DNA of 64,000 bases, taken from Streptosporangium sp. NBC_01495 (GTDB lineage Bacteria > Actinomycetota > Actinomycetes > Streptosporangiales > Streptosporangiaceae). The DNA is taken from NCBI RefSeq assembly GCF_036250735.1, contig NZ_CP109430.1:5580001-5644000 (forward strand). Direction: 5' to 3'. A model generated the notes under the pieces. That model was not told the origin of the DNA. It saw only the letters and a list, made by a program, of their open reading frames with translations, and made no database searches. Below, piece after piece: positions 11,667-21,632 of this stretch. The position numbers and the translations under genes are program-made. The stretch's first letter is position 1. Every line of letters begins with the position of its first letter.

Positions 11667-12492
11667 GTCCTCATCGCCCTTACGAGGGGTCGCAACTGAA
11701 CTACGGCCACCTCGGCAAGAAGATGACGGACGTGTCCTCATCGCCCTTACGAGGGGTCGCAACCGGCGCTGACGAACGCGGAGTGGACCAGGCCAGCGGG
11801 TCCTCATCGCCCTTACGAGGGGTCGCAACGACATCAGGGCGCCTCCTGGCCGTGGTGGATGGCCAGTCCTCATCGCCCTTACGAGGGGTCGCAACCCGGC
11901 CGTCCGCGCCGCCCGGATCAGCTTGTGATCCGGTCCTCATCGCCCTTACGAGGGGTCGCAACCCGAGCGAGGCGGACCCGAACCCCGTTCGACTAGTCCT
12001 GTCCTCATCGCCCTTACGAGGGGTCGCAACATGTCACCGCGTTGTCCGATGAGGACCTGCTGGACGTCCTCATCGCCCTTACGAGGGGTCGCAACGGCGG
12101 CAACTCCATCAGCTCGTTGAACATCTGCTTGTCCTCATCGCCCTTACGAGGGGTCGCAACGCGGCATGCTGATCTTCCCCGACGCCAAACAGTCCTTGTC
12201 CTCATCGCCCTTACGAGGGGTCGCAACCCGTTCAGGTACGCCTTCACGTCATCGGACAGGACGTGTCCTCATCGCCCTTACGAGGGGTCGCAACCTGGCG
12301 AGCCCCGGGGCTTCCTTCGTCGTGCGGGCCGTCCTCATCGCCCTTACGAGGGGTCGCAACATGCCGTAGCGGCGGGCGTCGCCGCACGCGATGAGGTCCT
12401 CATCGCCCTTACGAGGGGTCGCAACGGCGGGCAGCTGCACGCGTCGGCCAGGACGCTCACGCGTCCTCATCACCCTTACGAGGGGTCGCAAC
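11667..12492 (+). CRISPR. Right CRISPR array, 13 repeats and 12 spacers
   Basis: Thirty-base repeats start at 11667, 11734, 11800, 11866, 11933, 12001, 12066, 12131, 12198, 12265, 12331, 12396 and 12463. Spacers are 35-38 bp and all differ. The repeat begins GTCCTCATCG and ends GAGGGGTCGCAAC; the last copy has one change (TCATCACCC), the usual decay at the leader-distal end. The inner stem CCCTT/AGGGG includes a T-G wobble at base 14. Repeat length, cas gene order and Cas8b fit type I-B. Confidence 0.98.
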
Positions 12493-12664
12493 CGGGGATG
12501 TTCTTCCGATCAGGACAAGCCGCCGTCCGGTCGTTTCCAGGCTCGCCATACCGGGCCTGATGACGTGGAGCGCAGGGCTCCGGAGACCTACACGACCAAA
12601 CGCGATGCCGAGGTCTGGTCGAGCAGGAAGGAATCCCTCTTTTTTCCCGCGCGGGAGCCGCGGG

Positions 12665-12694
12665 TTGACAGGCCCCACGGCCGGCGGAGACCGT
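12665..12694 (+). promoter_or_regulatory. Probable promoter of the signal peptidase gene
   Basis: A perfect TTGACA at 12665-12670 is followed 18 bp later by GACCGT (12689-12694). Transcription would begin near 12701, leaving a very short leader before the TTG at 12720. Confidence 0.5.
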
Positions 12695-12719
12695 TACCCC
12701 GGAACAGATCGGCCCTTCC

Positions 12720-13208
12720 TTGGACCGGCAGCGGAAAGGTACGGCGACGTTGATCATCGGTGGGCTACTCTTCGGTGTTCTCCTCTTGGCCGCGGGCGCT
12801 TCCTGGGCTCGCCGAAGCTATATGGTGATCATCGTTGACGGAACGAGCATGACGCCGACGCTGACCGACGGCGACCGCGTCCTGGTGCGGCGGCGACGGC
12901 TCGATCAGGTGAGCCGGGGCAATGTCGTCGTGCTCGAGCCTCCGCTGGATCCTTCCGGTCGGTACATGCCCGGGCCGTCCGGTCCGGACGGCCGACGCTG
13001 GAACATCAAGCGGGTCGCCGCGTTGCCCGGTGATCCGGTGCCGGCGGGGATCACGGCCGGTGCCGCCATGGCTCTGGTGCCTTCCGGGGCGGTGGTGGTC
13101 CTCGGTGACAACCCGGCGGACAGTGTCGACTCCCGACAGCGAGGGTTCTTTCCCGCGGACCAGGTGCTCGGCGTCGCACTGCGCCGGTTGGGCGGGTCGG
13201 CCCTTTGA
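12720..13208 (+). CDS. S26-family signal peptidase (type I-like)
   Basis: Membrane serine protease that removes leader or signal peptides. The 162-residue protein has a basic N-terminus, one membrane segment (about residues 10-28), the catalytic Ser43 in DGTSMTPTL, Lys97 in RWNIKRVAALPGD, and the C-terminal box VVLGDNPADSVDSRQRGFF. Start is uncertain: TTG at 12720 keeps the basic pre-membrane residues, TTG at 12750 is the next option. It is not beside housekeeping secretion genes but upstream of a SARP regulator, a Cys-rich peptide and an ABC exporter, so a dedicated leader peptidase role is inferred. The IS605-type element follows its stop directly. Confidence 0.85.
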   Translation: MDRQRKGTATLIIGGLLFGVLLLAAGASWARRSYMVIIVDGTSMTPTLTDGDRVLVRRRRLDQVSRGNVVVLEPPLDPSGRYMPGPSGPDGRRWNIKRVAALPGDPVPAGITAGAAMALVPSGAVVVLGDNPADSVDSRQRGFFPADQVLGVALRRLGGSAL

Positions 13209-13221
13209 CATCCACTCCGCC

Positions 13222-14445
13222 CTAAAGGACGGAGATTCCCGTCTGCCGCGCGTGCGGCTGCGGGTGGGTTACTGCTTCTTCGCGCGGTGCCGGAACACGT
13301 CCCGGTCTTACCTGCGCTCCACAGTCGTTTAGCCTCTCCGTCTGCCCGGCGGCGAGGATGTTGATCGCGGCGTTGATGTCCCGGTCGTGGGTGGCACCAC
13401 ATCCGCACGTCCACGACCGGATGGTGAGCGGCATCGAGGTGGCGATGGTGCCGCACGCCGAGCACAGCTTCGACGACGGGAACCAGCGGTCGATCTTGGC
13501 GAAGTGGCGGCCGTACCTGACGGCCTTGTACTCCAGCATGGCGACGAACTGTGACCAGCCCGCGTCGTGCACGCTCTTGGCCAGCTTGGTGCGCGCCAGA
13601 GCCGACACCGCAAGGTCTTCCACGTACACCGCTTGGTTGTCGCGGATCAACGTGGTGGAGAGCTTGTGTGCCCAGTCTCGGCGTGTGTCGGTCACCTTGG
13701 CGTACGCCTTGGCAACCTTGAGCTTGGCCTTGCCCCGGTTCGCCGAGCCCTTCTTTGTGCGGCTCAGCGCCTTCTGCGCCCTGCGGAGTTTCTTGGCCGC
13801 GCGCCGCAGGATGCGCGGGTTGTCCACCTTCTCGCCGTCCGACATCACCGCGAAGTGCGTCAGACCCAGATCGATACCAATCTCGGGGCTCGTCTCGGGC
13901 AACGGCTCGTCGGAGGTCTCGACCACGAACGACGCGAAGTACCGGCCCGCCGAGTCCTTGATCACCGTCACCGAGGATGGGTCCGACGGCAGCGACCGCG
14001 ACCAGCGAACCGGCACATCCCCGATCTTCGGCAACCGCAGGCGGCCCGACTCGGTGACCGTGAACCGGGCGTTCTTGGTGAACCGGATCGCTTGGCGGGA
14101 GTCCTTGCGCGACCGAAACCGGGGCGGGCCGACTTTGCGGCCCTTGCGCTTGCCTGCCAGGGAAGCGAAGAAGGTGCGGTAGGCGGTGTTCAGATCGGCG
14201 AGCGCCTGCTGAAGGATCACGGCTGAGACTTCGCCCAGCCACGCCCGCTGCGGGGTCTGCTTGGCCTGAGTGATGATCCGCTTGGACAGATCCCCGTCCG
14301 AGATGTATGGCAAATTCGCCGCGCGGGCATCGGCCCGCATACGCAGCCCGTCGTTGAACACCACGCGGGCGCACCCGAACGCCCGTGCCAGCGCGGCACG
14401 CTGGTCGCCGTCGGGATACACCCGGTAGTTGTAACGAAGCCGCAC
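13222..14445 (-). CDS. tnpB: TnpB, RNA-guided nuclease of the IS605-type element
   Basis: The 407-residue protein has the TnpB plan: N-terminal helix-turn-helix-like domain (MRLRYNYRVYP), a RuvC nuclease split into IGIDLGLTHFA (Asp), YVEDLAVSALA (Glu) and HDRDINAAINI (Asp), with a zinc finger (CSACG and CGCG) before the last Asp. TnpB proteins cut DNA guided by an RNA from the 3' end of the element; here that RNA would run past the stop to about 13209 and take its guide from the antisense 3' end of the signal peptidase gene. All catalytic residues appear present. Start is GTG at 14445. Confidence 0.93.
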   Translation of the reverse strand: MRLRYNYRVYPDGDQRAALARAFGCARVVFNDGLRMRADARAANLPYISDGDLSKRIITQAKQTPQRAWLGEVSAVILQQALADLNTAYRTFFASLAGKRKGRKVGPPRFRSRKDSRQAIRFTKNARFTVTESGRLRLPKIGDVPVRWSRSLPSDPSSVTVIKDSAGRYFASFVVETSDEPLPETSPEIGIDLGLTHFAVMSDGEKVDNPRILRRAAKKLRRAQKALSRTKKGSANRGKAKLKVAKAYAKVTDTRRDWAHKLSTTLIRDNQAVYVEDLAVSALARTKLAKSVHDAGWSQFVAMLEYKAVRYGRHFAKIDRWFPSSKLCSACGTIATSMPLTIRSWTCGCGATHDRDINAAINILAAGQTERLNDCGAQVRPGRVPAPREEAVTHPQPHARQTGISVL

Positions 14446-14467
14446 CCGTTAATTCTATCGTTGGTTT

Positions 14468-14884
14468 ATGGCCGAACACGAAGACATCAGGACCGGCAGG
14501 CACTGCGTTTTTGCCCTGCATGCGCATTTGGTCTTCGTGACCAGGTTTCGGCACCGGGTGTTCACCGACCCCCACCTGAGCAGGATGGAGGAGATCATGC
14601 GGGACGTGTGCGCCGACTTCGAGACCGAGCTTGCCGAGTTCAACGGCGAGAACAATCACGTCCACCTATTGATGAACTTCCCGCCCAAGATCGCCCTGTC
14701 CAAACTCGTCAACTCGTTGAAGGGCGTATCCTCACGCAGGATGCGCACCGAGTTTCCCGAGTCGGCCCGTCACTGTTACCGGGCGAACAGGCTGTGGTCG
14801 GGCTCATACTTCGCCGGGTCGGTGGGCGGCGTACCGATCAGCGTCCTGCGCCGGTGCATCGAGCGGCAAAACCGCCCGGCTTAG
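14468..14884 (+). CDS. tnpA: TnpA, Y1 single-strand transposase (IS200/IS605)
   Basis: The 138-residue HUH transposase has the His-hydrophobic-His motif in NNHVHLLMNFPP and the nucleophilic tyrosine expected in the SYFAGSVGG region near residue 116. Length is normal for the family, so it looks complete. It starts 22 bases from the tnpB start and reads away from it. Confidence 0.93.
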   Translation: MAEHEDIRTGRHCVFALHAHLVFVTRFRHRVFTDPHLSRMEEIMRDVCADFETELAEFNGENNHVHLLMNFPPKIALSKLVNSLKGVSSRRMRTEFPESARHCYRANRLWSGSYFAGSVGGVPISVLRRCIERQNRPA

Positions 14885-14994
14885 GGCACGCTCAGGCCCT
14901 CAGGGGCCTTCCCGCGCGGGCCTTCACCCCCGGCCTGAAGGCCGGAGCACTGACCCGCATTCTGGTAGCCGGCGCCAGGGCCGGCGAGGAAGGG

Positions 14995-17940
14995 ATGACC
15001 TTGAGGTTTTGCCTCCTTGGGCCGATGCGGATCGAGGTCGACGGCTCACCCGTACAGATCACGGCACCGAAACAACGCACCGTCCTCGCCATGCTGCTCG
15101 CACGTGCCGGGCACGTCGTCCCGGTCCGTTCACTGGTGGCCGAGGTGTGGGACGAACGACCGCCCCGCTCGGCGGTGGCGAACCTGCGCACCTACCTCAT
15201 GCAGCTGCGCAGGCTGATGCCCTCCGCCGATGATCCGGCCGACGAGCGGCTGGTCACCACGGAGGCCGGCTACCTGCTGCGGGTCGAACCGACCGAGTTC
15301 GATCTCTCCCAGTTCGAGGCGCTGTTCGCGTACGGTCGCCAGGCGCTGGCCCGCCGGGACCTCGGCACCGCACAGGACGCGTACACCCGAGCTCTCGCAC
15401 TGTGGCGAGGGACGGCCGCCGAGGACGTGCCGCTGGGGCCGGCCCTGCGGGAGGTGGTCGCCCGTCTCACCGACCAGTATCTCAGCGCGGTGGAGGAGCA
15501 CACGGAGATCCAGCTCATGCTGGGCGGGCACACGAAGGCGGTCAGGCGGCTGCGCGAGCTGATCGGGCAGCATCCGCTGCGGGAGCGGCTGTACGGCCAG
15601 CTGATGGTGGCGTTATACCGGTGCGGCGACGTGGTCGGCGCGCTGGACGTATTCGGGATGGCTCGCCGGGTCCTGGCCGAGGAACTCGGGCTCGACCCCG
15701 GACCGGACCTGCGGCGGCTACAACAGGCGGTCCTGCACCGGGACGCGGATCTGATGTCGCCGGACAGGCCACCGACCGGCGGGAACACCGTGATCGAGGG
15801 AGCCTCGGACGGGCGCCTCCGGCCACGTCAACTGCCACGGGAGCCGACGGTGTTCGTCGGCCGGTCGACCGAACTCACCCGGATGCTCACAGTGCTGCGT
15901 GGTCATCCGGAGGCGGGTGCCGAACCGCCGGTCCTGGCGCTGCACGGCCCCGGCGGGGTCGGCAAGTCGACGCTGGCGCTGCGGGCGGCGTACGCCATGG
16001 CCGATCGCTACACCGACGGCCAGCTCTACGTCGACCTGCAGGGATCGAGTCCAGGCCTGCCGCCATTGCAGGCCGCCGAGGTGCTCGGCCGCTTCCTACG
16101 GGCCCTGGGAGTGCCGCACGGCGACATCCCCGCGGCGCCGGCGGAAGCGGCCACTCATTACCAGTCTCTGCTGGCCGACCGGCGAGTCCTGATCGTTCTC
16201 GACAACGCCGTCGACGCCGCCCAGGTCGCGCCGTTGGTGCCGGCGAGCGGCGGCTGCGCGGCGCTGGTCACCAGCCGGGCGGCGCTGACCACCATGGAGG
16301 CCGTGCAGGTCGCCGTCGAGGTGCTCGACGAGGCGGACTCCGTGCGGATGCTCGCGCAACTGGCGGGTCAGTCGCGAGTGACCGCCGAGGCCGAGGCGGC
16401 GGCCGGCATCACCCGCCGGTGCGGTTATCACCCACTCGCGTTGCGCATCGCCGGCGCCCGTCTGGCCGCCCGCCCCGATTGGTCGCTCGAGCGGTTCGGC
16501 GAGCGGCTGCTGAGCCGACAGCATCGCCTGGACGAGTTGCAGGCCGCTGACCTGGCCATCCGATCCTGCTTTGAGATCAGCTACGAAACGCTGAGGAGCA
16601 GCGTGAGCGCGGCGGCGCGCGCCTTCCGGCTGTTCGGAGTGCTCGATGTGCCGGAGGTCAGCCTTGAGCTCGCCGCCGCGCTGCTCGACGTCGAGCTGAA
16701 GGTGGCCGAGGCGGCGCTCGACGAGCTGACGGAGGTTCGCCTGCTGGAGCCGGTCGGCGACGGGCGATTTCGCATGCACGACCTCCTCAGGCTGTTCGCC
16801 TCCGAGCTGGCCGTGGCCGAGGATCCGCAGGCTGATCGGGTACGGGCCGTCCGGCGCGCGCTGGACTGGTACCTCGAGCTGTGCCGGCAGGTGAGAGACC
16901 TGATGGAACCGCACTTGCGGCCAAAAGGGGGCCCGCCGGACGGACGGGACACAGGCGTGGCCTTCTGGAGCACCACGGAGGCGGTGCGGTGGTTCGAAAT
17001 CGAGGTGCCGTGCCTGGTCGCGGCCGTCACCCAGGCTGCGACGGGGGAACCCGAGGTCGCTCGCTTCGTCACCGATCTGATGCCGCTGGTCAAAGCTCGG
17101 GCGACAAACCGCGGTCATTGGCGGGAGCTTGAGACCATGGCCCGGCTCGCCATCAAGGTGGCGCGGCGGCTTGGTGACAGGACCGGTGAGGCGTTCACAC
17201 TGACGACGCTGGGGGTGGTGGAATGGCGCACCGGCCGGATCGACGCCGCTCGCGACTGCCTGCACCGCGCCCTCGAACTCCGGCGCGACCTGGGCGACCA
17301 GGAGGCCGAAGGGCTGGCGTTGCACAACCTTGGCTGGCTGAGCATGCGCACCGGTGATCTCGATGACGCCCTCGACCACATCACCGCGGGGCTGCGGCTG
17401 ATCGAGGCACATGGATCGAACCGGGCCGGCATGGTCAGGCACAACCTGGGCGAAGTCCTGCTCCAGCTCGGCCGCTTGCCAGAGGCAGCCGATTGCTTCG
17501 AACGGTGCCTGTCCGTCCGACGGGCGGACCGTGACCTGTTCGGGGAGAGCATCACCCTGGCCGCGCTCGGACGTGCCTACTGCCTGCTCGATCGTCGCGG
17601 CGAGGCACTGGCCACGTTCGAGGTCGCGCTGAGCCGCTGCCGGGAGACCGGCAACCGGGAGGACGAGTGGGAAGTGCTGCTCAGCAGGTCCGAGATCTGG
17701 CTACGGCACGGTGATCCCGCCGCGGCTGTGGCCGACCTGGCCCGGACGCTGGAGCTGACCGCTCAGGTCGGTGACACCTACGGCCAGGCCGCCACCGCTC
17801 GCCAGTTCGCCAGGGCGCGTGCCGCGCTGGGCGACTCGCATGCGGCGGCGGAGGATGCCCGCAGGGCCGAGGACCTCTTCGCGATGCCCGGAATGCGGCG
17901 CGATCCGGTGCTGGAGATGCTGCTCACCGCCCGGTTGTAG
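14995..17940 (+). CDS. SARP/AfsR-type regulator (winged helix, BTAD, NB-ARC, TPR)
   Basis: Probable activator of the following peptide cluster. The 981-residue protein has a winged-helix DNA-binding domain (about 5-95), a bacterial transcriptional activation domain (about 100-245, ending GLDPGPDLRRLQ), an NTPase with Walker A GPGGVGKST near residue 320, and C-terminal TPR repeats (about 700-960). ATG at 14995 follows GAGGAAGGG; an in-frame extension back to 14461 runs through the transposon and is rejected. The IS605 end lies only about 45 bases upstream, so the native promoter may have been replaced. The Cys-rich peptide gene follows 78 bases after the stop. Confidence 0.9.
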   Translation: MTLRFCLLGPMRIEVDGSPVQITAPKQRTVLAMLLARAGHVVPVRSLVAEVWDERPPRSAVANLRTYLMQLRRLMPSADDPADERLVTTEAGYLLRVEPTEFDLSQFEALFAYGRQALARRDLGTAQDAYTRALALWRGTAAEDVPLGPALREVVARLTDQYLSAVEEHTEIQLMLGGHTKAVRRLRELIGQHPLRERLYGQLMVALYRCGDVVGALDVFGMARRVLAEELGLDPGPDLRRLQQAVLHRDADLMSPDRPPTGGNTVIEGASDGRLRPRQLPREPTVFVGRSTELTRMLTVLRGHPEAGAEPPVLALHGPGGVGKSTLALRAAYAMADRYTDGQLYVDLQGSSPGLPPLQAAEVLGRFLRALGVPHGDIPAAPAEAATHYQSLLADRRVLIVLDNAVDAAQVAPLVPASGGCAALVTSRAALTTMEAVQVAVEVLDEADSVRMLAQLAGQSRVTAEAEAAAGITRRCGYHPLALRIAGARLAARPDWSLERFGERLLSRQHRLDELQAADLAIRSCFEISYETLRSSVSAAARAFRLFGVLDVPEVSLELAAALLDVELKVAEAALDELTEVRLLEPVGDGRFRMHDLLRLFASELAVAEDPQADRVRAVRRALDWYLELCRQVRDLMEPHLRPKGGPPDGRDTGVAFWSTTEAVRWFEIEVPCLVAAVTQAATGEPEVARFVTDLMPLVKARATNRGHWRELETMARLAIKVARRLGDRTGEAFTLTTLGVVEWRTGRIDAARDCLHRALELRRDLGDQEAEGLALHNLGWLSMRTGDLDDALDHITAGLRLIEAHGSNRAGMVRHNLGEVLLQLGRLPEAADCFERCLSVRRADRDLFGESITLAALGRAYCLLDRRGEALATFEVALSRCRETGNREDEWEVLLSRSEIWLRHGDPAAAVADLARTLELTAQVGDTYGQAATARQFARARAALGDSHAAAEDARRAEDLFAMPGMRRDPVLEMLLTARL

Positions 17941-18018
17941 CGCGGCTGTATCGGCGGCTGTATGTCCCCAAAATAATGTTTCGGCTGCCCGCATCGCTCG
18001 ATGAAGGACTGAACCAAC

Positions 18019-18207
18019 ATGAACGTTCTGGGAAAGCTCGGCGACCACCTCCTTGAGAAGCTGGTACCGAAGGCGACCGCGAAGGCCGACTCCTCCTACT
18101 GGCTGACCTGCTACTGCCAGGGGACGACCAGATACGCCAAGCTCTGCCACGTCGTCGGCGGTACGACCGGCTGCGTGTCGGGCTGCGAGAAGCACGGACG
18201 CTGCTGA
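18019..18207 (+). CDS. Six-cysteine precursor peptide (putative secreted RiPP or bacteriocin)
   Basis: A 62-residue peptide with two halves. Residues 1-24 are Cys-free and leader-like: an amphipathic stretch with LGDHLLEKLVPK and then ATAKAD, whose AKA fits a signal-peptidase-like cut after residue 23. Residues 25-62 hold cysteines at 31, 33, 43, 52, 56 and 62 (CxC-x9-C-x8-CxxxC-x5-C), many Gly/Thr, and end in Cys. No modifying enzyme of lanthipeptide, sactipeptide or azole type is nearby, while two redox proteins are, so disulfide bonding is the likely modification. A GAAGGA about 12 bases upstream of ATG is a plausible ribosome site. I recognise no named family. Confidence 0.75.
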   Translation: MNVLGKLGDHLLEKLVPKATAKADSSYWLTCYCQGTTRYAKLCHVVGGTTGCVSGCEKHGRC

Positions 18208-18236
18208 CCGGGCCGACCCCGTAGTCCGGGCTCCGA

Positions 18237-18281
18237 GCGTGTTTCGCGGGTCCTCACCACACGGGGATCCGCGAAACACGC
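18237..18281 (+). terminator. Strong hairpin after the precursor peptide gene
   Basis: Arms GCGTGTTTCGCGG (18237-18249) and CCGCGAAACACGC (18269-18281) pair perfectly and can extend by three more pairs after one mismatch. There is no T-run. It lies between the peptide gene and the mauE-like gene and could stop most transcripts or protect the peptide mRNA, favouring peptide over export proteins. Confidence 0.7.
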
Positions 18282-18304
18282 CGGACAGTACGACCCATGA
18301 GACG

Positions 18305-18847
18305 GTGAAGATGCTCTACCTGATGATCGCATGCCAGGCGTTGCTGGCCGGCGTCTTCGTGATCGCGCTGGTGGGCAAGGTTCGCGGGCGGGCGGCGCTC
18401 GACGAGTTCGTGGCCTCGATCGTGGCCCTCGGGATGTTCCCGCGCGCGAGGTCCGTGGCGGCGGCGTACGCCGTGCTGGGGGCGGAGGCCGTGGTGATCC
18501 TCGCACTCGTGCTGCCGTACACCCTGCTTTTGGGCTTCGCGGCTGCGACGGCGTTGCTCATCGTCCTGACCGCTGGTATCTCGGCCGCCCTGCGACGGGG
18601 ACGGCACACGCCGTGCCGGTGCTTCGGCGCTTCCGTCACCCCGCTGGGCCGGACACACGTGGTGCGCAATCTCGTTCTGGTGGCGGTCGGCTGTATCGGG
18701 TTCGCGGCCGGTGCCGGCGACGCCGGATCCGCGGCGCACCCGGCCGGTGTCGCCCTCGCGTTGGCCACCGCCGCCGTGGGCGCCCTGATCGTGGTGCGCC
18801 TCGATGACCTGGTGGGCCTGTTCACCACTTCCGTCTCGCCGCGCTGA
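18305..18847 (+). CDS. MauE/DoxX-like membrane redox protein
   Basis: Integral membrane protein of about 180 residues with four or more hydrophobic segments. It has the MauE-type motif CRCFGAS (C104, C106) followed by a GRTHVVRN segment. MauE-like proteins pass electrons or disulfides across the membrane with a MauD/TlpA-type thioredoxin, and exactly such a gene follows. Start is GTG at 18305 or ATG at 18311; the 18239 start lies in the preceding hairpin and is rejected. Role in oxidising or isomerising the Cys-rich peptide is inferred. Confidence 0.85.
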   Translation: MKMLYLMIACQALLAGVFVIALVGKVRGRAALDEFVASIVALGMFPRARSVAAAYAVLGAEAVVILALVLPYTLLLGFAAATALLIVLTAGISAALRRGRHTPCRCFGASVTPLGRTHVVRNLVLVAVGCIGFAAGAGDAGSAAHPAGVALALATAAVGALIVVRLDDLVGLFTTSVSPR

Positions 18848-18906
18848 CGTGCGAGGCGTGCCGGCCTGATGTCCCTAAGCCCGATGTCCTTGAACGAGGT
18901 TGTCCG

Positions 18907-19416
18907 ATGACTTTCCTGATCACCGCCGTCGTGCTGGTCGGCGTGCTCTGCGCCTTCGACCTGCTGCTCACCTTCGCGGTACTGCGCCGCCTTCGCGAGC
19001 ACTCCGCCGAGTTGGCACGCCTCGCCGGACAGCCGCGATTCGCTCCTTACAACCCGGGAGCCCTGGTCGGGCGCACCCTGCCCCAGACCGACACGGATGG
19101 TGTCGACCGGCCGCAGCTCGTGGCGTTCTTCGACGTCAACTGCGATGCGTGCCACGAGCACGCGCCACAGTTCGCCGTCGCGGCCCGCACCCACACCGCC
19201 ATGGCGGTCGTCTCCGGTGACGGTCCGAAGATCGCCGACCTCCTCAAGGCGGTCGGCGGCGTGGCGAGCGTCATCACGGCCGAACGCGCCGACAGTCTGG
19301 TGAAGGCGATCGGCGTCGAAGCCTTCCCGACATTCCTGCGCGTCGGCCCGGACGGCACGATCGTGGAGGCGCAGACGGAGCTTTCGGCCCTCGCCGAGAT
19401 GACGTCGGCGAGGTGA
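18907..19416 (+). CDS. Membrane-anchored thioredoxin-like protein (TlpA/MauD type)
   Basis: The 169-residue protein has an N-terminal membrane anchor (about residues 3-27) and a thioredoxin fold facing outward, with active site C79-D-A-C82 in FFDVNCDACHEHAP and the cis-proline loop AFPTF near residue 140. It fits a MauD-like partner of the preceding MauE-like protein. Its stop overlaps the GTG start of the ABC exporter by 4 bases, so the two are translationally coupled. Substrate is inferred to be the six-Cys peptide. Confidence 0.88.
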   Translation: MTFLITAVVLVGVLCAFDLLLTFAVLRRLREHSAELARLAGQPRFAPYNPGALVGRTLPQTDTDGVDRPQLVAFFDVNCDACHEHAPQFAVAARTHTAMAVVSGDGPKIADLLKAVGGVASVITAERADSLVKAIGVEAFPTFLRVGPDGTIVEAQTELSALAEMTSAR

Positions 19417-21281
19417 CGACATCTCCGGCCTTGGCCGCGAAGCCAGGTGGAGGTCGGCTGCGGCTGCGAGATGTCGGCACGGTGGCGTCACTGTGCTGGC
19501 GGGCCGGCCCCGGTCTGGCGGCGTCCCAGCTGGCGGTCACCGTCGTCGGCGGCCTGCTGCCCGCGGGGACCGTGTGGATGACGAAGCTTCTCATCGACGG
19601 ACTGGCGGCCGGTCGCCCCGATCTCGTACTGCTGCCGGTCAGCGGCCTCACCGCCATCGGGCTGGTCTCCGGGGTGCTGCCGCAGCTCACCGCGTACCTG
19701 CGGGCTGAGTCGGAGCGTAGGCTGGATCGTCTGATGCAGGACCGCCTGTACACGGCGGTGAACGGATTCCAGGGCCTGTCAAGGTTCGAGAATCCGGCGT
19801 TCCTGGACGGGCTGCGCCTGGCCACCCAGGCTTCGGGAAGCACGTTGGCGCCCATCACCTCGGGTCTGTTCGACATCGGGCGCAATGCCATCATGCTGGT
19901 CAGCCTCTTGGCCGCCCTGGCCGTGCTGAGCCCGCTCATGGCGGGACTGGTGGCGCTGGCGGCGATTCCGGCCCTGATCGCCCGGCTGTCGCTGGAGAAG
20001 CGACGGATGATAATGATCGCCGGGCAGTCCACGTCGATCCGGCGGCAAATCTTCTACTCTTCCCTGATCACCGATGTGCAGGCCGCGAAAGAGGTCCGGC
20101 TCTTCGGGCTGGGCGGCTTCCTCAAGGACCGGATGTTCGGGGAGCTGGCCACCGTCCAGGCCGGTGAACGGCGGCTGGACCGGCAGGAGGCGCTCACCCA
20201 ATCGCTGCTCGCGGTGCTCTCCGCCGCGGTCAGCGGCGTGGGGTTGATCTGGGCGGTGTACGCCGCGGCGGACGGCCGGTTGACCCTCGGCGACGTGACC
20301 GCGTTCGCCGCCGCCGTGGCCGGAACGCAGGGTGCGCTGATCGCACTGGTGGAGAACGCGGCCAACGCCCGTCAGGCGCTGTCCCTGTTCGGTCACCACG
20401 AGCAGGTGACATCGCTGCCCGACGACCTGCCGCCGCCGCGTCGCTCCACGGAGGGACCGTCCGCCACGCTGCCTGCGCTGCGGCGGGGCATCGAGCTGCG
20501 CGATGTGTGGTTCCGATACGACGAGAGCCATCCATGGGTGCTGAGGGGAGTCGACCTGACGATCCCGTACGGCGCGTCGGTCGCACTGGTGGGGCTCAAC
20601 GGGGCCGGCAAGAGCACTTTGATCAAGCTGCTCTGCCGGTTCTATGATCCGTCCCGGGGGGCGATCCTCTGGGACGGCGTGGACCTGCGCGCCGTACCGC
20701 CTGCCGAGCTGCGCGCCAGGATGGGCGTGCTCTTCCAGGACTACATGAGCTACGACCTGACCGCGGCGGAGAACATCGGGGTGGGGGAGATCGAGGCTCT
20801 GTCCGACCGCGTCAGGATCCAGGCCGCCGCCGGGATGGCGGATGTCCACGAAATCGTCGAGGCGCTGCCCCGAGGCTACGACACACTACTGAGCCGGATC
20901 TTCTTCGGGGACGAGGAGGAGGATGACGCCCAGACCGGGGTGCTGCTCTCCGGAGGCCAGTGGCAGCGTCTGGCCCTGGCCCGCACGATGGTGCGCGAGC
21001 AGCGCGACCTGCTCATCCTCGATGAGCCCAGCTCGGGCCTGGACGCGCAGGCCGAGTACGAGATGCACCGGCGGCTGCGCAAGCATCGCATGGGGCGCAC
21101 CAGCCTGCTCGTGTCGCACCGGCTCGGCTCTGTCCGCGACGCGGACCTGATCGTCGTACTCGGCGACGGCCGGATCGTCGAGCGGGGAACGCACGACGAC
21201 CTCATGGCCGCAGGCGGAGGGTACTCCCAGCTGTTCGAGGTGCAGGCCAGGGGCTATCGCGAGGATGCCGACGTTCAGTGA
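19413..21281 (+). CDS. ABC exporter, fused membrane and ATPase domains
   Basis: A 622-residue half-transporter with six membrane segments (about residues 25-310) and a C-terminal ATPase: Walker A GLNGAGKST near residue 393, Q-loop LFQDYMSYD, signature LSGGQWQRLALAR near 510, Walker B LLILDEPSSGLD and switch SHRLGS. No N-terminal C39 peptidase domain is present, so leader removal must come from elsewhere, which fits the S26 peptidase upstream. Likely exports the Cys-rich peptide. Coupled to the thioredoxin gene by a GTGA overlap. Confidence 0.92.
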   Translation: MTTSPALAAKPGGGRLRLRDVGTVASLCWRAGPGLAASQLAVTVVGGLLPAGTVWMTKLLIDGLAAGRPDLVLLPVSGLTAIGLVSGVLPQLTAYLRAESERRLDRLMQDRLYTAVNGFQGLSRFENPAFLDGLRLATQASGSTLAPITSGLFDIGRNAIMLVSLLAALAVLSPLMAGLVALAAIPALIARLSLEKRRMIMIAGQSTSIRRQIFYSSLITDVQAAKEVRLFGLGGFLKDRMFGELATVQAGERRLDRQEALTQSLLAVLSAAVSGVGLIWAVYAAADGRLTLGDVTAFAAAVAGTQGALIALVENAANARQALSLFGHHEQVTSLPDDLPPPRRSTEGPSATLPALRRGIELRDVWFRYDESHPWVLRGVDLTIPYGASVALVGLNGAGKSTLIKLLCRFYDPSRGAILWDGVDLRAVPPAELRARMGVLFQDYMSYDLTAAENIGVGEIEALSDRVRIQAAAGMADVHEIVEALPRGYDTLLSRIFFGDEEEDDAQTGVLLSGGQWQRLALARTMVREQRDLLILDEPSSGLDAQAEYEMHRRLRKHRMGRTSLLVSHRLGSVRDADLIVVLGDGRIVERGTHDDLMAAGGGYSQLFEVQARGYREDADVQ

Positions 21282-21339: not shown

Positions 21340-21632
21340 CACGTGCCCGAGGACTGGTTGTCGTGCTGTGGTGGCTGGTGGCGCCGCACGGCCTGCGGCG
21401 AGGAGAAGCGGCCGGACTGCGCTGGCTGGACGTCGACCTGGAGCGGCGTGAGCTCACGGTCGCGCACCAGCTGGTGCAGACCGACGATGTTTTGATCTTG
21501 TGTGAGCCGAAGAGCGTGGCCGGCAGTGCCGTCTGCCGCTGTCCGCCAGAAGGTTTCGTCGTGCCTGGTCCAGGCCGTCAGGATCGGACATCGTCGCAGC
21601 CCCCGCTACTGATGTGGACACTTGCTTGGTGA
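21340..21632 (+). pseudogene. Tyrosine recombinase (phage-type integrase) fragment
   Basis: Sequence near 21363-21530 encodes LRRGEAAGLRWLDVDLERRELTV as separate recognisable pieces of an integrase catalytic domain, including the first catalytic Arg region (GLRRGE) and a later PKSVAG. The His-x-x-Arg and Tyr motifs are missing and the frame ends in unrelated sequence. It is a remnant, and hints that an integrative element once ended here, right after the peptide cluster. Confidence 0.75.

Follow-up and report, generated by a model that had tools for sequence, protein, structure and literature searches.

The 64,000-nucleotide stretch of Streptosporangium sp. NBC_01495 DNA analysed here (the window) contains, between positions 12720 and 21281, a short open reading frame encoding six cysteines that lies among genes for a peptidase, a regulator, two putative redox proteins and an exporter. 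This raises the question of whether the frame encodes a genuine precursor peptide and, if so, how the surrounding genes would mature and export it. What the sequences show is the gene content and its co-conservation, the leader, the even cysteine number and the catalytic residues. On this evidence we consider it highly probable that the product belongs to a large family of secreted peptides, rich in disulfides and dependent on a leader, that would be matured by a MauE/thioredoxin pair, cut by an S26 peptidase and exported by an ABC protein.

The operon and its insertion element

All six genes are on the + strand. The S26 family peptidase (12720..13208; PF10502 at 1.4e-21, TIGR02227 at 1.3e-21) starts with TTG, although by eye a second in-frame TTG at 12751, preceded by GGAAAGG, provides an alternative start; it has a single N-terminal transmembrane (TM) segment and a Ser/Lys dyad, S42 and K96. 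Downstream lie a SARP (BTAD)/NB-ARC/TPR regulator (14995..17940; PF03704 at 5.7e-42, among others), the 62-residue, six-cysteine precursor peptide (18019..18207; recognised from its translation, its orthologs and the leader profile), a MauE-family membrane protein with a CxCFG motif at C102 and C104 (18311..18847; PF07291 at 4.5e-24), a membrane-anchored thioredoxin-like protein (Trx) with a CDAC motif (18907..19416), whose Pfam match is weak (0.006, under the cut-off) and which we suggest has a MauD-like role, and an ABC exporter with TM and ATPase parts (19413..21281; PF00664 ABC_membrane, PF00005 ABC_tran), in which a Pfam domain search found no C39 or peptidase domain. The reading frames and coordinates of the gene set proposed in the first-pass annotation thus hold, as does its remark that no usual RiPP modifying enzyme is present: none (YcaO, LanM/B/C, radical SAM etc.) was found among the domains of the window operon.

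The peptidase gene is parted from the regulator gene by an IS200/IS605-type element (13205..14964, boundaries by eye) that sits at the last codon of the S26 gene and encodes TnpB on the - strand (13222-14445; Pfam OrfB_IS605, 2e-28) and TnpA on the + strand (14468-14884; Pfam Y1_Tnp, 2e-36). In 6 of 15 same-genus relatives (L028-L033) all six genes are kept and the element is absent, with ~26-54 bp (from match ends) between the S26 stop and the SARP start; in two of these, L028 and L029, the sequence is GCCCT-GTAGCC at the site that the element occupies in the window (about 13205-14964). Since the S26 gene lies directly before the SARP gene in these six relatives, the element is a later insertion and is not part of the peptide system.

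The peptide orthologs of the six relatives, each within the same operon, are 73-82% identical to the window peptide in five genomes and 63% in the sixth. A peptide frame broken in close relatives, which the first-pass annotation had named as evidence against its proposal, was found in one of the 15 (G008, where the operon copy is decayed); seven other same-genus relatives gave no peptide match. Intact operons thus occur in only 7 of 16 same-genus genomes, our own included. An exact-pattern scan of genome contigs matched two named relatives, and a phylum survey of 396 genomes gave, at E 5e-4, no match beyond the own genome.

Leader and core of the precursor

The window precursor divides into a predicted leader (residues 1-23, MNVLGKLGDHLLEKLVPKATAKA) and a six-cysteine core (residues 24-62) at a putative cut site. 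Among 79 examined loci we collected 94 distinct precursors, having dropped an over-long frame (L129) and a chance match (L025:5515) and admitted weak matches in L131 and L153. All 94 combine a common leader (GDRLL...VP-x3-A-x-A) with hypervariable cores, as expected of RiPP-type precursors, which have a conserved N-terminal leader and a variable core; the loci were chosen via the leader, but those picked by Trx agree on this pattern. The P-x3-A-x-A motif is present in 92/94 precursors (89 by script and 3 by eye among the script's misses). Position -3 departs in two (V in L152, G in L153), and larger leader departures occur among some Trx-found precursors (L213, L217, L228, L230, L251). D(-15) is found in 90/91 leaders and R(-14) in 84/91, figures that the leader profile and regular expression favour, P(-7) being 91/91 by construction. 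To judge from its composition, the leader, 23 residues long, does not resemble a Sec signal: it is amphipathic, with charged residues in its middle, and has no hydrophobic core before AxA.

The number of core cysteines is even in 90/91 precursors (three of the 94, in which the profile match started inside the leader, were left out) and in 58/59 after dereplication (p 1e-16 if independent), the odd core having seven cysteines (L042). Leaders contain one cysteine in 2092 residues. Core length ranges from 28 to 58 residues, 29/91 cores have eight or ten cysteines, and precursors also occur in tandem arrays of up to seven (L153). For the window peptide, the predicted product (residues 24-62 with three disulfides) has a computed monoisotopic mass of 4222.80. 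Its core was modelled as a small beta-sheet with pLDDT of about 81-91 from residue 31 onward, within a weak model of the whole peptide (mean pLDDT 71, pTM 0.46).

Co-occurrence of precursor and cassette

In 60 loci picked by the leader, S26 was detected in 56, Trx in 56, ABC in 52, MauE in 47 and all four in 42, whereas none of 22 control windows (18 kb) contained any of them at the same cut-offs (Fisher p 3e-16 for S26, 3e-11 for MauE and 2e-9 for all four). The counts are somewhat generous, because the counted loci had also served to build the local profiles, which the controls had not; the ABC cut-off was 1e-150, and weaker ABC matches do appear in controls (best 1e-80). MauE is not strictly required, being absent from 13 of the 60. 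Two loci (L124, L129) have a leader-type peptide and no cassette gene at the cut-offs, and L132 has S26 only. Regulators matching the SARP profile were counted in 36/60, a figure that covers two kinds of regulator, since the profile also catches HTH/NB-ARC/TPR regulators (L027).

In the reverse direction, a Cys-rich precursor was present in 18 of 20 loci picked by Trx (12 via the leader profile, two of them weakly, and 6 by eye); none was found in L214 and L215. Trx matched nine records of a plasmid collection, and all six that were opened contain MauE, Trx, ABC, S26 and a leader-type peptide, with 6, 4, 6, 8, 6 and 8 cysteines. The own genome holds three clusters, each with its own S26; of its seven MauE places, the three adjoining a cassette-type Trx are these clusters, and the other four were inspected for small Cys-rich frames only. 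The first-pass annotation had asked whether other actinomycetes conserve S26, MauE and thioredoxin genes together with a Cys-rich core. This co-conservation is seen in both directions, and the family is found in Streptosporangiaceae-type actinomycetes and some streptomycetes.

These results bear on whether the peptide is a chance Cys-rich frame beside unrelated genes. Known families offer no counterweight to that reading: searches of Pfam, NCBIfam and PHROGs with 60 precursors returned scattered weak matches only (best 0.0025, one member), and a PDB search with the precursors returned none. The leader strings had a single, unrelated match in the literature. Orthologs, the leader profile, cysteine parity and the reciprocal co-occurrence all stand against it; conservation refutes a chance frame, and we regard its probability as negligible.

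Conserved active sites and disulfide formation

The catalytic residues of the cassette proteins are conserved. S42 and K96 are present in 73/73 aligned S26 rows; C102, C104, E59 and R119 are invariant across 46 aligned MauE sequences; Trx keeps C79 in 77/77, C82 in 75/77 and P141 in 77/77 rows; and the ABC ATPase motifs are conserved in 70 rows (the window is counted twice in the S26, Trx and ABC alignments). A likeness of MauE to VKOR/DsbB was not supported: its AF2 model is confident (mean pLDDT 93), yet a fold search of the PDB gave no match below E 0.8.

Together with the even cysteine number and the near-invariant P-x3-A-x-A site, these residues fit the disulfide-stabilised secreted peptide, with a leader cut by the S26 enzyme, that the first-pass annotation had proposed. 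In the sequence of events that we favour, the SARP would turn the operon on and the leader would direct the precursor to membrane machinery of its own. MauE, probably drawing on membrane electron carriers, and the CxxC thioredoxin would pair the six cysteines into three disulfides, as cysteine parity and the conserved active sites suggest. The S26 Ser/Lys peptidase would remove the leader after A21-K22-A23, a cut to which both the P-x3-A-x-A motif and the presence of an S26 gene in nearly every cassette point, and the peptide would be exported by the ABC protein, itself devoid of a leader peptidase domain.

The redox pair might instead keep the precursor reduced or shuffle wrong disulfides, with oxidation occurring spontaneously outside. 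A CxxC centre can work either way, and the absence of MauE from 13 of the 60 loci, set against the 56 that keep Trx, agrees with such a role; the parity of the cysteines, however, argues for a strong need for full pairing, and MauE has been speculated to aid disulfide formation in methylamine dehydrogenase (PMC7794033), so that we consider reduction or shuffling unlikely. The cysteine pairs could also carry chemistry other than disulfides. A search for a recurrent extra modifying enzyme covered 1058 neighbouring open frames from up to 70 loci, clustered with exclusion of frames overlapping cassette genes and annotated in part, and none was recognised among the 22 largest groups. A response regulator accounts for the largest group (10 loci), the representatives of two nine-locus groups look like shadow frames, the precursors themselves form one group of five loci and one of four, and the remainder comprise at most four loci each.

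Membrane side of maturation

S26 enzymes usually act outside, and the actinobacterial cytoplasm is reducing. Charge bias nevertheless suggests that maturation may take place at the cytoplasmic face, with the CxCFG loop of MauE, the thioredoxin domain and the catalytic domain of S26 all pointing inwards. Disulfides would then be formed and the leader cut at the inner membrane face, the ABC protein would export the folded peptide, and S26 would stand in for the C39 domain of peptidase-containing exporters. Trx has no K/R ahead of its TM segment in 64 of 65 proteins counted (those without a clear start were left out) and on average 2.88 K/R over the following 12 residues, resembling the N-out/C-in charge pattern of TatA. 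The MauE CxCFG loop has a mean of 5.2 K/R and 0.7 D/E (46 sequences), compared with about 0.2 K/R for the loops that would be on the opposite side. In 66 S26 proteins the mean is 0.35 K/R from the nearest start to the TM segment and 2.92 after it, and the two that were examined of the own genome's three housekeeping-type signal peptidases have the opposite pattern. Against this, the S26 starts are uncertain, the ten residues before the TM segment having a mean of 1.64 K/R, and three in the window's own S26 subfamily; charge bias is moreover a rule of thumb, and both the reducing cytoplasm and the usual site of S26 action oppose the idea. We therefore hold a cytoplasmic arrangement to be tentative, with a less than even chance. 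The fuller proposal of a new secreted-peptide class, in which all disulfides are formed by MauE/Trx, the leader is cut on the cytoplasmic side by an S26 of inverted topology and a finished, knotted peptide is then exported by the ABC protein, seems to us unlikely. If true, bacteria would here form disulfides on the inner side of the membrane, and this might explain the action of MauE/MauD on methylamine dehydrogenase, an enzyme with a small subunit that may leave the cytoplasm in folded form.

Relation to known systems

The first-pass annotation had suggested that this may be a class of its own. The idea is not wholly new, since decRiPPter (Kloosterman et al. 2020, PMC7794033) had flagged, in one paragraph, three MauE candidate families with Cys-rich precursors in Streptomyces, one of them with MauD. 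These passed a transporter, regulator and peptidase filter, and a disulfide role was suggested for MauE. The window operon likewise has MauE beside a Cys-rich precursor, transporter, peptidase and regulator, and might be of the same family; its peptide has six cysteines, the decRiPPter precursors in the S2 table have at least eight, and eight or ten are present in 29/91 of the cores collected here. The passages on the decRiPPter families give no leader, S26, sequence or experiment, and the term S26 is absent from the main text.

Maturation of methylamine dehydrogenase likewise involves a MauE membrane protein, the family to which the PF07291 match assigns the window protein, and a thioredoxin-like partner. 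Its client is small with many disulfides, and its light chain has a CC-rich look; homology of the precursors to the light chain was rejected, there being no Pfam match of note for the 60 precursors and no PDB match. Unlike mau, the client here is a hypervariable core that comes with a leader, an exporter and a peptidase of its own. Sublancin-type glycocins, in which a thioredoxin/DsbB-like pair adjoins the gene of a disulfide peptide, likewise devote a redox pair to one small secreted peptide; the window operon differs in having no glycosyltransferase, a C39-less exporter, an S26 and MauE in place of the DsbB-like partner. Class II bacteriocins use peptidase-containing (C39) ABC exporters for leader-guided export with a double-Gly site. 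There, as proposed here, one ABC protein exports a small peptide under the guidance of its leader, but the window system has a separate S26 enzyme and AxA replaces the double-Gly site, which raises the question of whether such export through an ABC protein can rely on an S26 enzyme. Laterosporulins are defensin-like bacteriocins with three disulfides, and their PDB entries have 49-53 residues. A Foldseek search with the peptide model placed three of these entries at ranks 4, 10 and 12, with non-significant E 1.2-2.1 (probability 0.41-0.60); the peptide has no sequence match to them and, in contrast to laterosporulin, leaderless according to the title of 4ozk, has a leader.

The disulfide-rich peptides defined by this one leader and one cassette form a large family without a name, which would supply the poorly understood MauE family with a small, testable client and offer stable hypervariable scaffolds of the kind wanted as antibiotics and binders.

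Role of the product

An antimicrobial or antagonistic role appears the most likely one, and we lean towards it with some confidence. A fixed leader with hypervariable cores, patchy presence, tandem arrays and occurrence on plasmids would all fit antagonism. The peptide might otherwise be a signal, a metal-binding or a cell-surface (morphogenetic) peptide; the wide variation of the cores can be read in this way, and neighbour clustering, a limited method, gave no recurrent candidate immunity gene, but given the features that fit antagonism we find a non-weapon role rather doubtful. Between the window and L028 and L029 the leader has 0 amino-acid changes, and in the core some 15-16 changes are nonsynonymous and 2-3 synonymous; in the trio L030-L032, core dN/dS exceeds 1 in one of three pairs.

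Results

The peptide system encoded at 12720-21281 of the window is real and conserved. The stretch contains, in order, an S26 peptidase, an IS200/IS605 element, a SARP, a 62-aa peptide, a MauE protein, a thioredoxin (Trx) and an ABC exporter, and all the open frames and domains read from the sequence alone in the first-pass annotation were found. The Trx match to Pfam was weak (0.006, under cut-off); the protein retains both its CDAC centre and the Pro at the cis-Pro position. No peptidase domain was found in the ABC protein of this operon, the 62-aa peptide was assigned to no family, and no precursor family of such a kind was found in NCBIfam (June 2026) or Pfam. The IS200/IS605 element (13205-14964, boundaries by eye), which encodes TnpA and a long TnpB (407 aa, with a Cas12f1-like TNB domain), is an intruder in the operon: it sits at the last codon of the S26 gene and replaces the last bases, leaving the protein end unchanged (Ala-Leu-stop). 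The S26-to-SARP distance, which includes TnpB and TnpA, is 1786 bp in the window as against about 26-54 bp (from match ends) at the intact loci of six same-genus genomes (L028-L033), where the remaining four genes follow the SARP gene in the same order as in the window. Since S26 adjoins SARP without the element in these six genomes, the S26 gene is part of the operon, as had been guessed.

The precursors share a leader, with an approximate consensus of M-x4-L-x-x-L-G-D-R-L-L-x3-V-P-x3-A-x-A. A profile built from 18 leaders (25 positions) matched 62 of 150 genomes of the same taxonomic family at E 0.05 and 43 at 1e-3; at class level 46 of 394 genomes matched at 0.02, many of these matches being weak and probably false, and at phylum level (E 5e-4) the own genome was the sole match among 396. 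We examined 60 leader matches, chosen by score (E up to about 2e-3, some sharing a genome), and adding the window and 18 loci found earlier brought the total to 79, which yielded 94 distinct precursors. P-x3-A-x-A was present in 92 of the 94 (89 by script, plus 3 script misses that start too late for the search window), the genuine exceptions being L152 and one L153 peptide. Counting back from the predicted cut after A-x-A, D(-15) was conserved in 90, R(-14) in 84, A(-3) in 89 and A(-1) in 91 of 91 sequences, conservation of P(-7) being fixed by the search itself; leaders contained a single Cys among 2092 residues in all. At L153 (G115:C28) one cassette is surrounded by seven different precursors of six Cys apiece, and in another genome (G158) the same precursor occurs at two places (L123 and L124), one with a cassette and the other without cassette genes at the cut-offs.

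The precursor and its partner genes recur together whichever side is used to pick the loci, the check that the first-pass annotation had proposed. Among the 60 leader-picked loci, S26 was present in 56, Trx in 56, ABC in 52, MauE in 47 and a SARP-type regulator in 36, with S26, Trx, ABC and MauE together in 42; the cassette-gene profiles were built on the loci in which they were then counted, and 22 control windows outside the build (18 kb each, 20 from elsewhere and 2 from the 64-kb window) gave, at the same cut-offs, none of these four genes and two SARP-type regulators. In the reverse direction, the Trx profile matched 33 of 394 class genomes, and of 20 Trx-picked loci, mostly where the leader search was silent or weak, the profile revealed a precursor in 12 (in two of them at E 0.04 and 0.4), and in six more one was recognised by eye; neither approach found one in the other two. 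Nine plasmid-collection records were matched by Trx alone, and all six examined carry MauE, Trx, ABC and S26 together with a leader-type peptide, whose Cys number (4 to 8) is even in every case. One of these records, from Nonomuraea gerenzanensis, is of chromosome size; the others come from Streptomyces nigrescens, S. atratus (a plasmid of 111 kb), a further two Streptomyces and one Embleya. The names listed for S. atratus are, in order, BTAD regulator, hypothetical protein, MauE/DoxX, hypothetical protein, ABC transporter and S26 family signal peptidase. Catalytic residues are retained: Ser42 and Lys96 of S26 in 73/73 rows, Cys79, Cys82 and Pro141 of Trx in 77/77, 75/77 and 77/77, and the Walker and signature motifs of ABC in nearly all of 70 rows (window counted twice in each alignment), with Cys102 and Cys104 of MauE invariant in 46 sequences. 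Two loci in two genomes of another family (L218 and L219) have a cassette with two thioredoxin genes.

Within the genus, a peptide frame broken in relatives, the outcome set against the original proposal, does occur in G008, where a decayed operon (L034, G008:C5, 8250-10262) has SARP, peptide residues 36-60 and ABC fragments side by side, and MauE and Trx were not found; the operon is intact in 7 of the 16 genomes searched, the own genome counted. G005 gave diverged matches only, and no peptide match was found in seven genomes, one of which (G001) has two diverged cassettes. Named relatives of the window peptide are those of Nonomuraea fuscirosea and N. glycinis. The own genome contains three such clusters, each with an S26 of its own; for the third, at 1.885 Mb, the precursor was recognised by eye. 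Also by eye, direct repeats whose core resembles CTCATCGCCCTTACGAGGGGTCGCAAC, with spacers that are unique (window 12300-12510), look like the end of a CRISPR array just upstream of the S26 gene, and the stretch 3' of the ABC gene (21360-21600) reads like a tyrosine recombinase fragment; in the S. atratus plasmid cluster an integrase is likewise present after S26.

Cores are 28-58 residues long with a Cys content of 17%, and contain 4 (5 cores), 6 (56), 7 (1), 8 (24) or 10 (5) Cys. As predicted by full cysteine pairing, the number is even in 90 of 91 and, once dereplicated at 60% likeness, in 58 of 59 (a parity p of 1e-16 that assumes independent cores, which related cores are not fully). The unique odd core (L042:9766-9966, seven Cys) adjoins a tandem precursor with eight, and a two-chain product is possible. 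All six Cys are invariant in 15 sequences of the window subfamily. Against its two nearest relatives, the window has a leader unchanged at the amino-acid level and a core in which about 15-16 changes are nonsynonymous and 2-3 synonymous (Fisher tests with rounded counts gave 0.009 and 0.048); in a second trio, core dN exceeded dS in one of three pairs. In an AF2 model (overall mean pLDDT 71, pTM 0.46) the leader is disordered and the core forms a small beta-sheet, with pLDDT about 81-91 from residue 31 onward. A fold search with this model placed three laterosporulin bacteriocins at ranks 4, 10 and 12 (E 1.2-2.1), a modelled likeness that may serve as a lead only.

Discussion

In the text of the decRiPPter paper (PMC7794033), three candidate Streptomyces families have mauE, one of them mauD too, all three have precursors with eight or more Cys, and a disulfide role is suggested; the passages on these families give neither a leader nor an experiment, and the term S26 is absent from the main text. 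No other description was found among the matches listed from openly licensed PubMed Central papers. What the present analysis adds is the leader common to the precursors, their Cys parity, S26 as a partner, co-conservation in both directions and the question of topology. The first-pass annotation had suggested that this may be a class of its own: the set of parts is indeed unfamiliar, but the leader-guided logic is familiar, and the system was foreshadowed by one printed paragraph.

The proposal of a disulfide-stabilised secreted peptide with an S26-cut leader holds as the putative function. Because the leader is without a hydrophobic stretch, Sec export is unlikely, and the ABC protein would be the evident exporter. 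A-x-A is the usual specificity of S26 enzymes and a C39 domain is absent, so S26 is the evident leader peptidase and would cleave off the leader, while MauE and Trx would be the evident makers of the disulfides. In the usual picture, oxidation and cleavage take place outside the membrane. However, 64 of 65 Trx sequences are without a basic residue before the TM, the mean right after it being about three, and the MauE CxCFG loop has on average 5.2 basic versus 0.7 acidic residues; as predicted from sequence, both patterns argue against outside placement. Maturation may therefore take place on either side of the membrane. The charge pattern of the cassette S26 likewise appears to speak against outside placement, less surely, and is opposite to the one seen in two signal peptidases of housekeeping type from the own genome.
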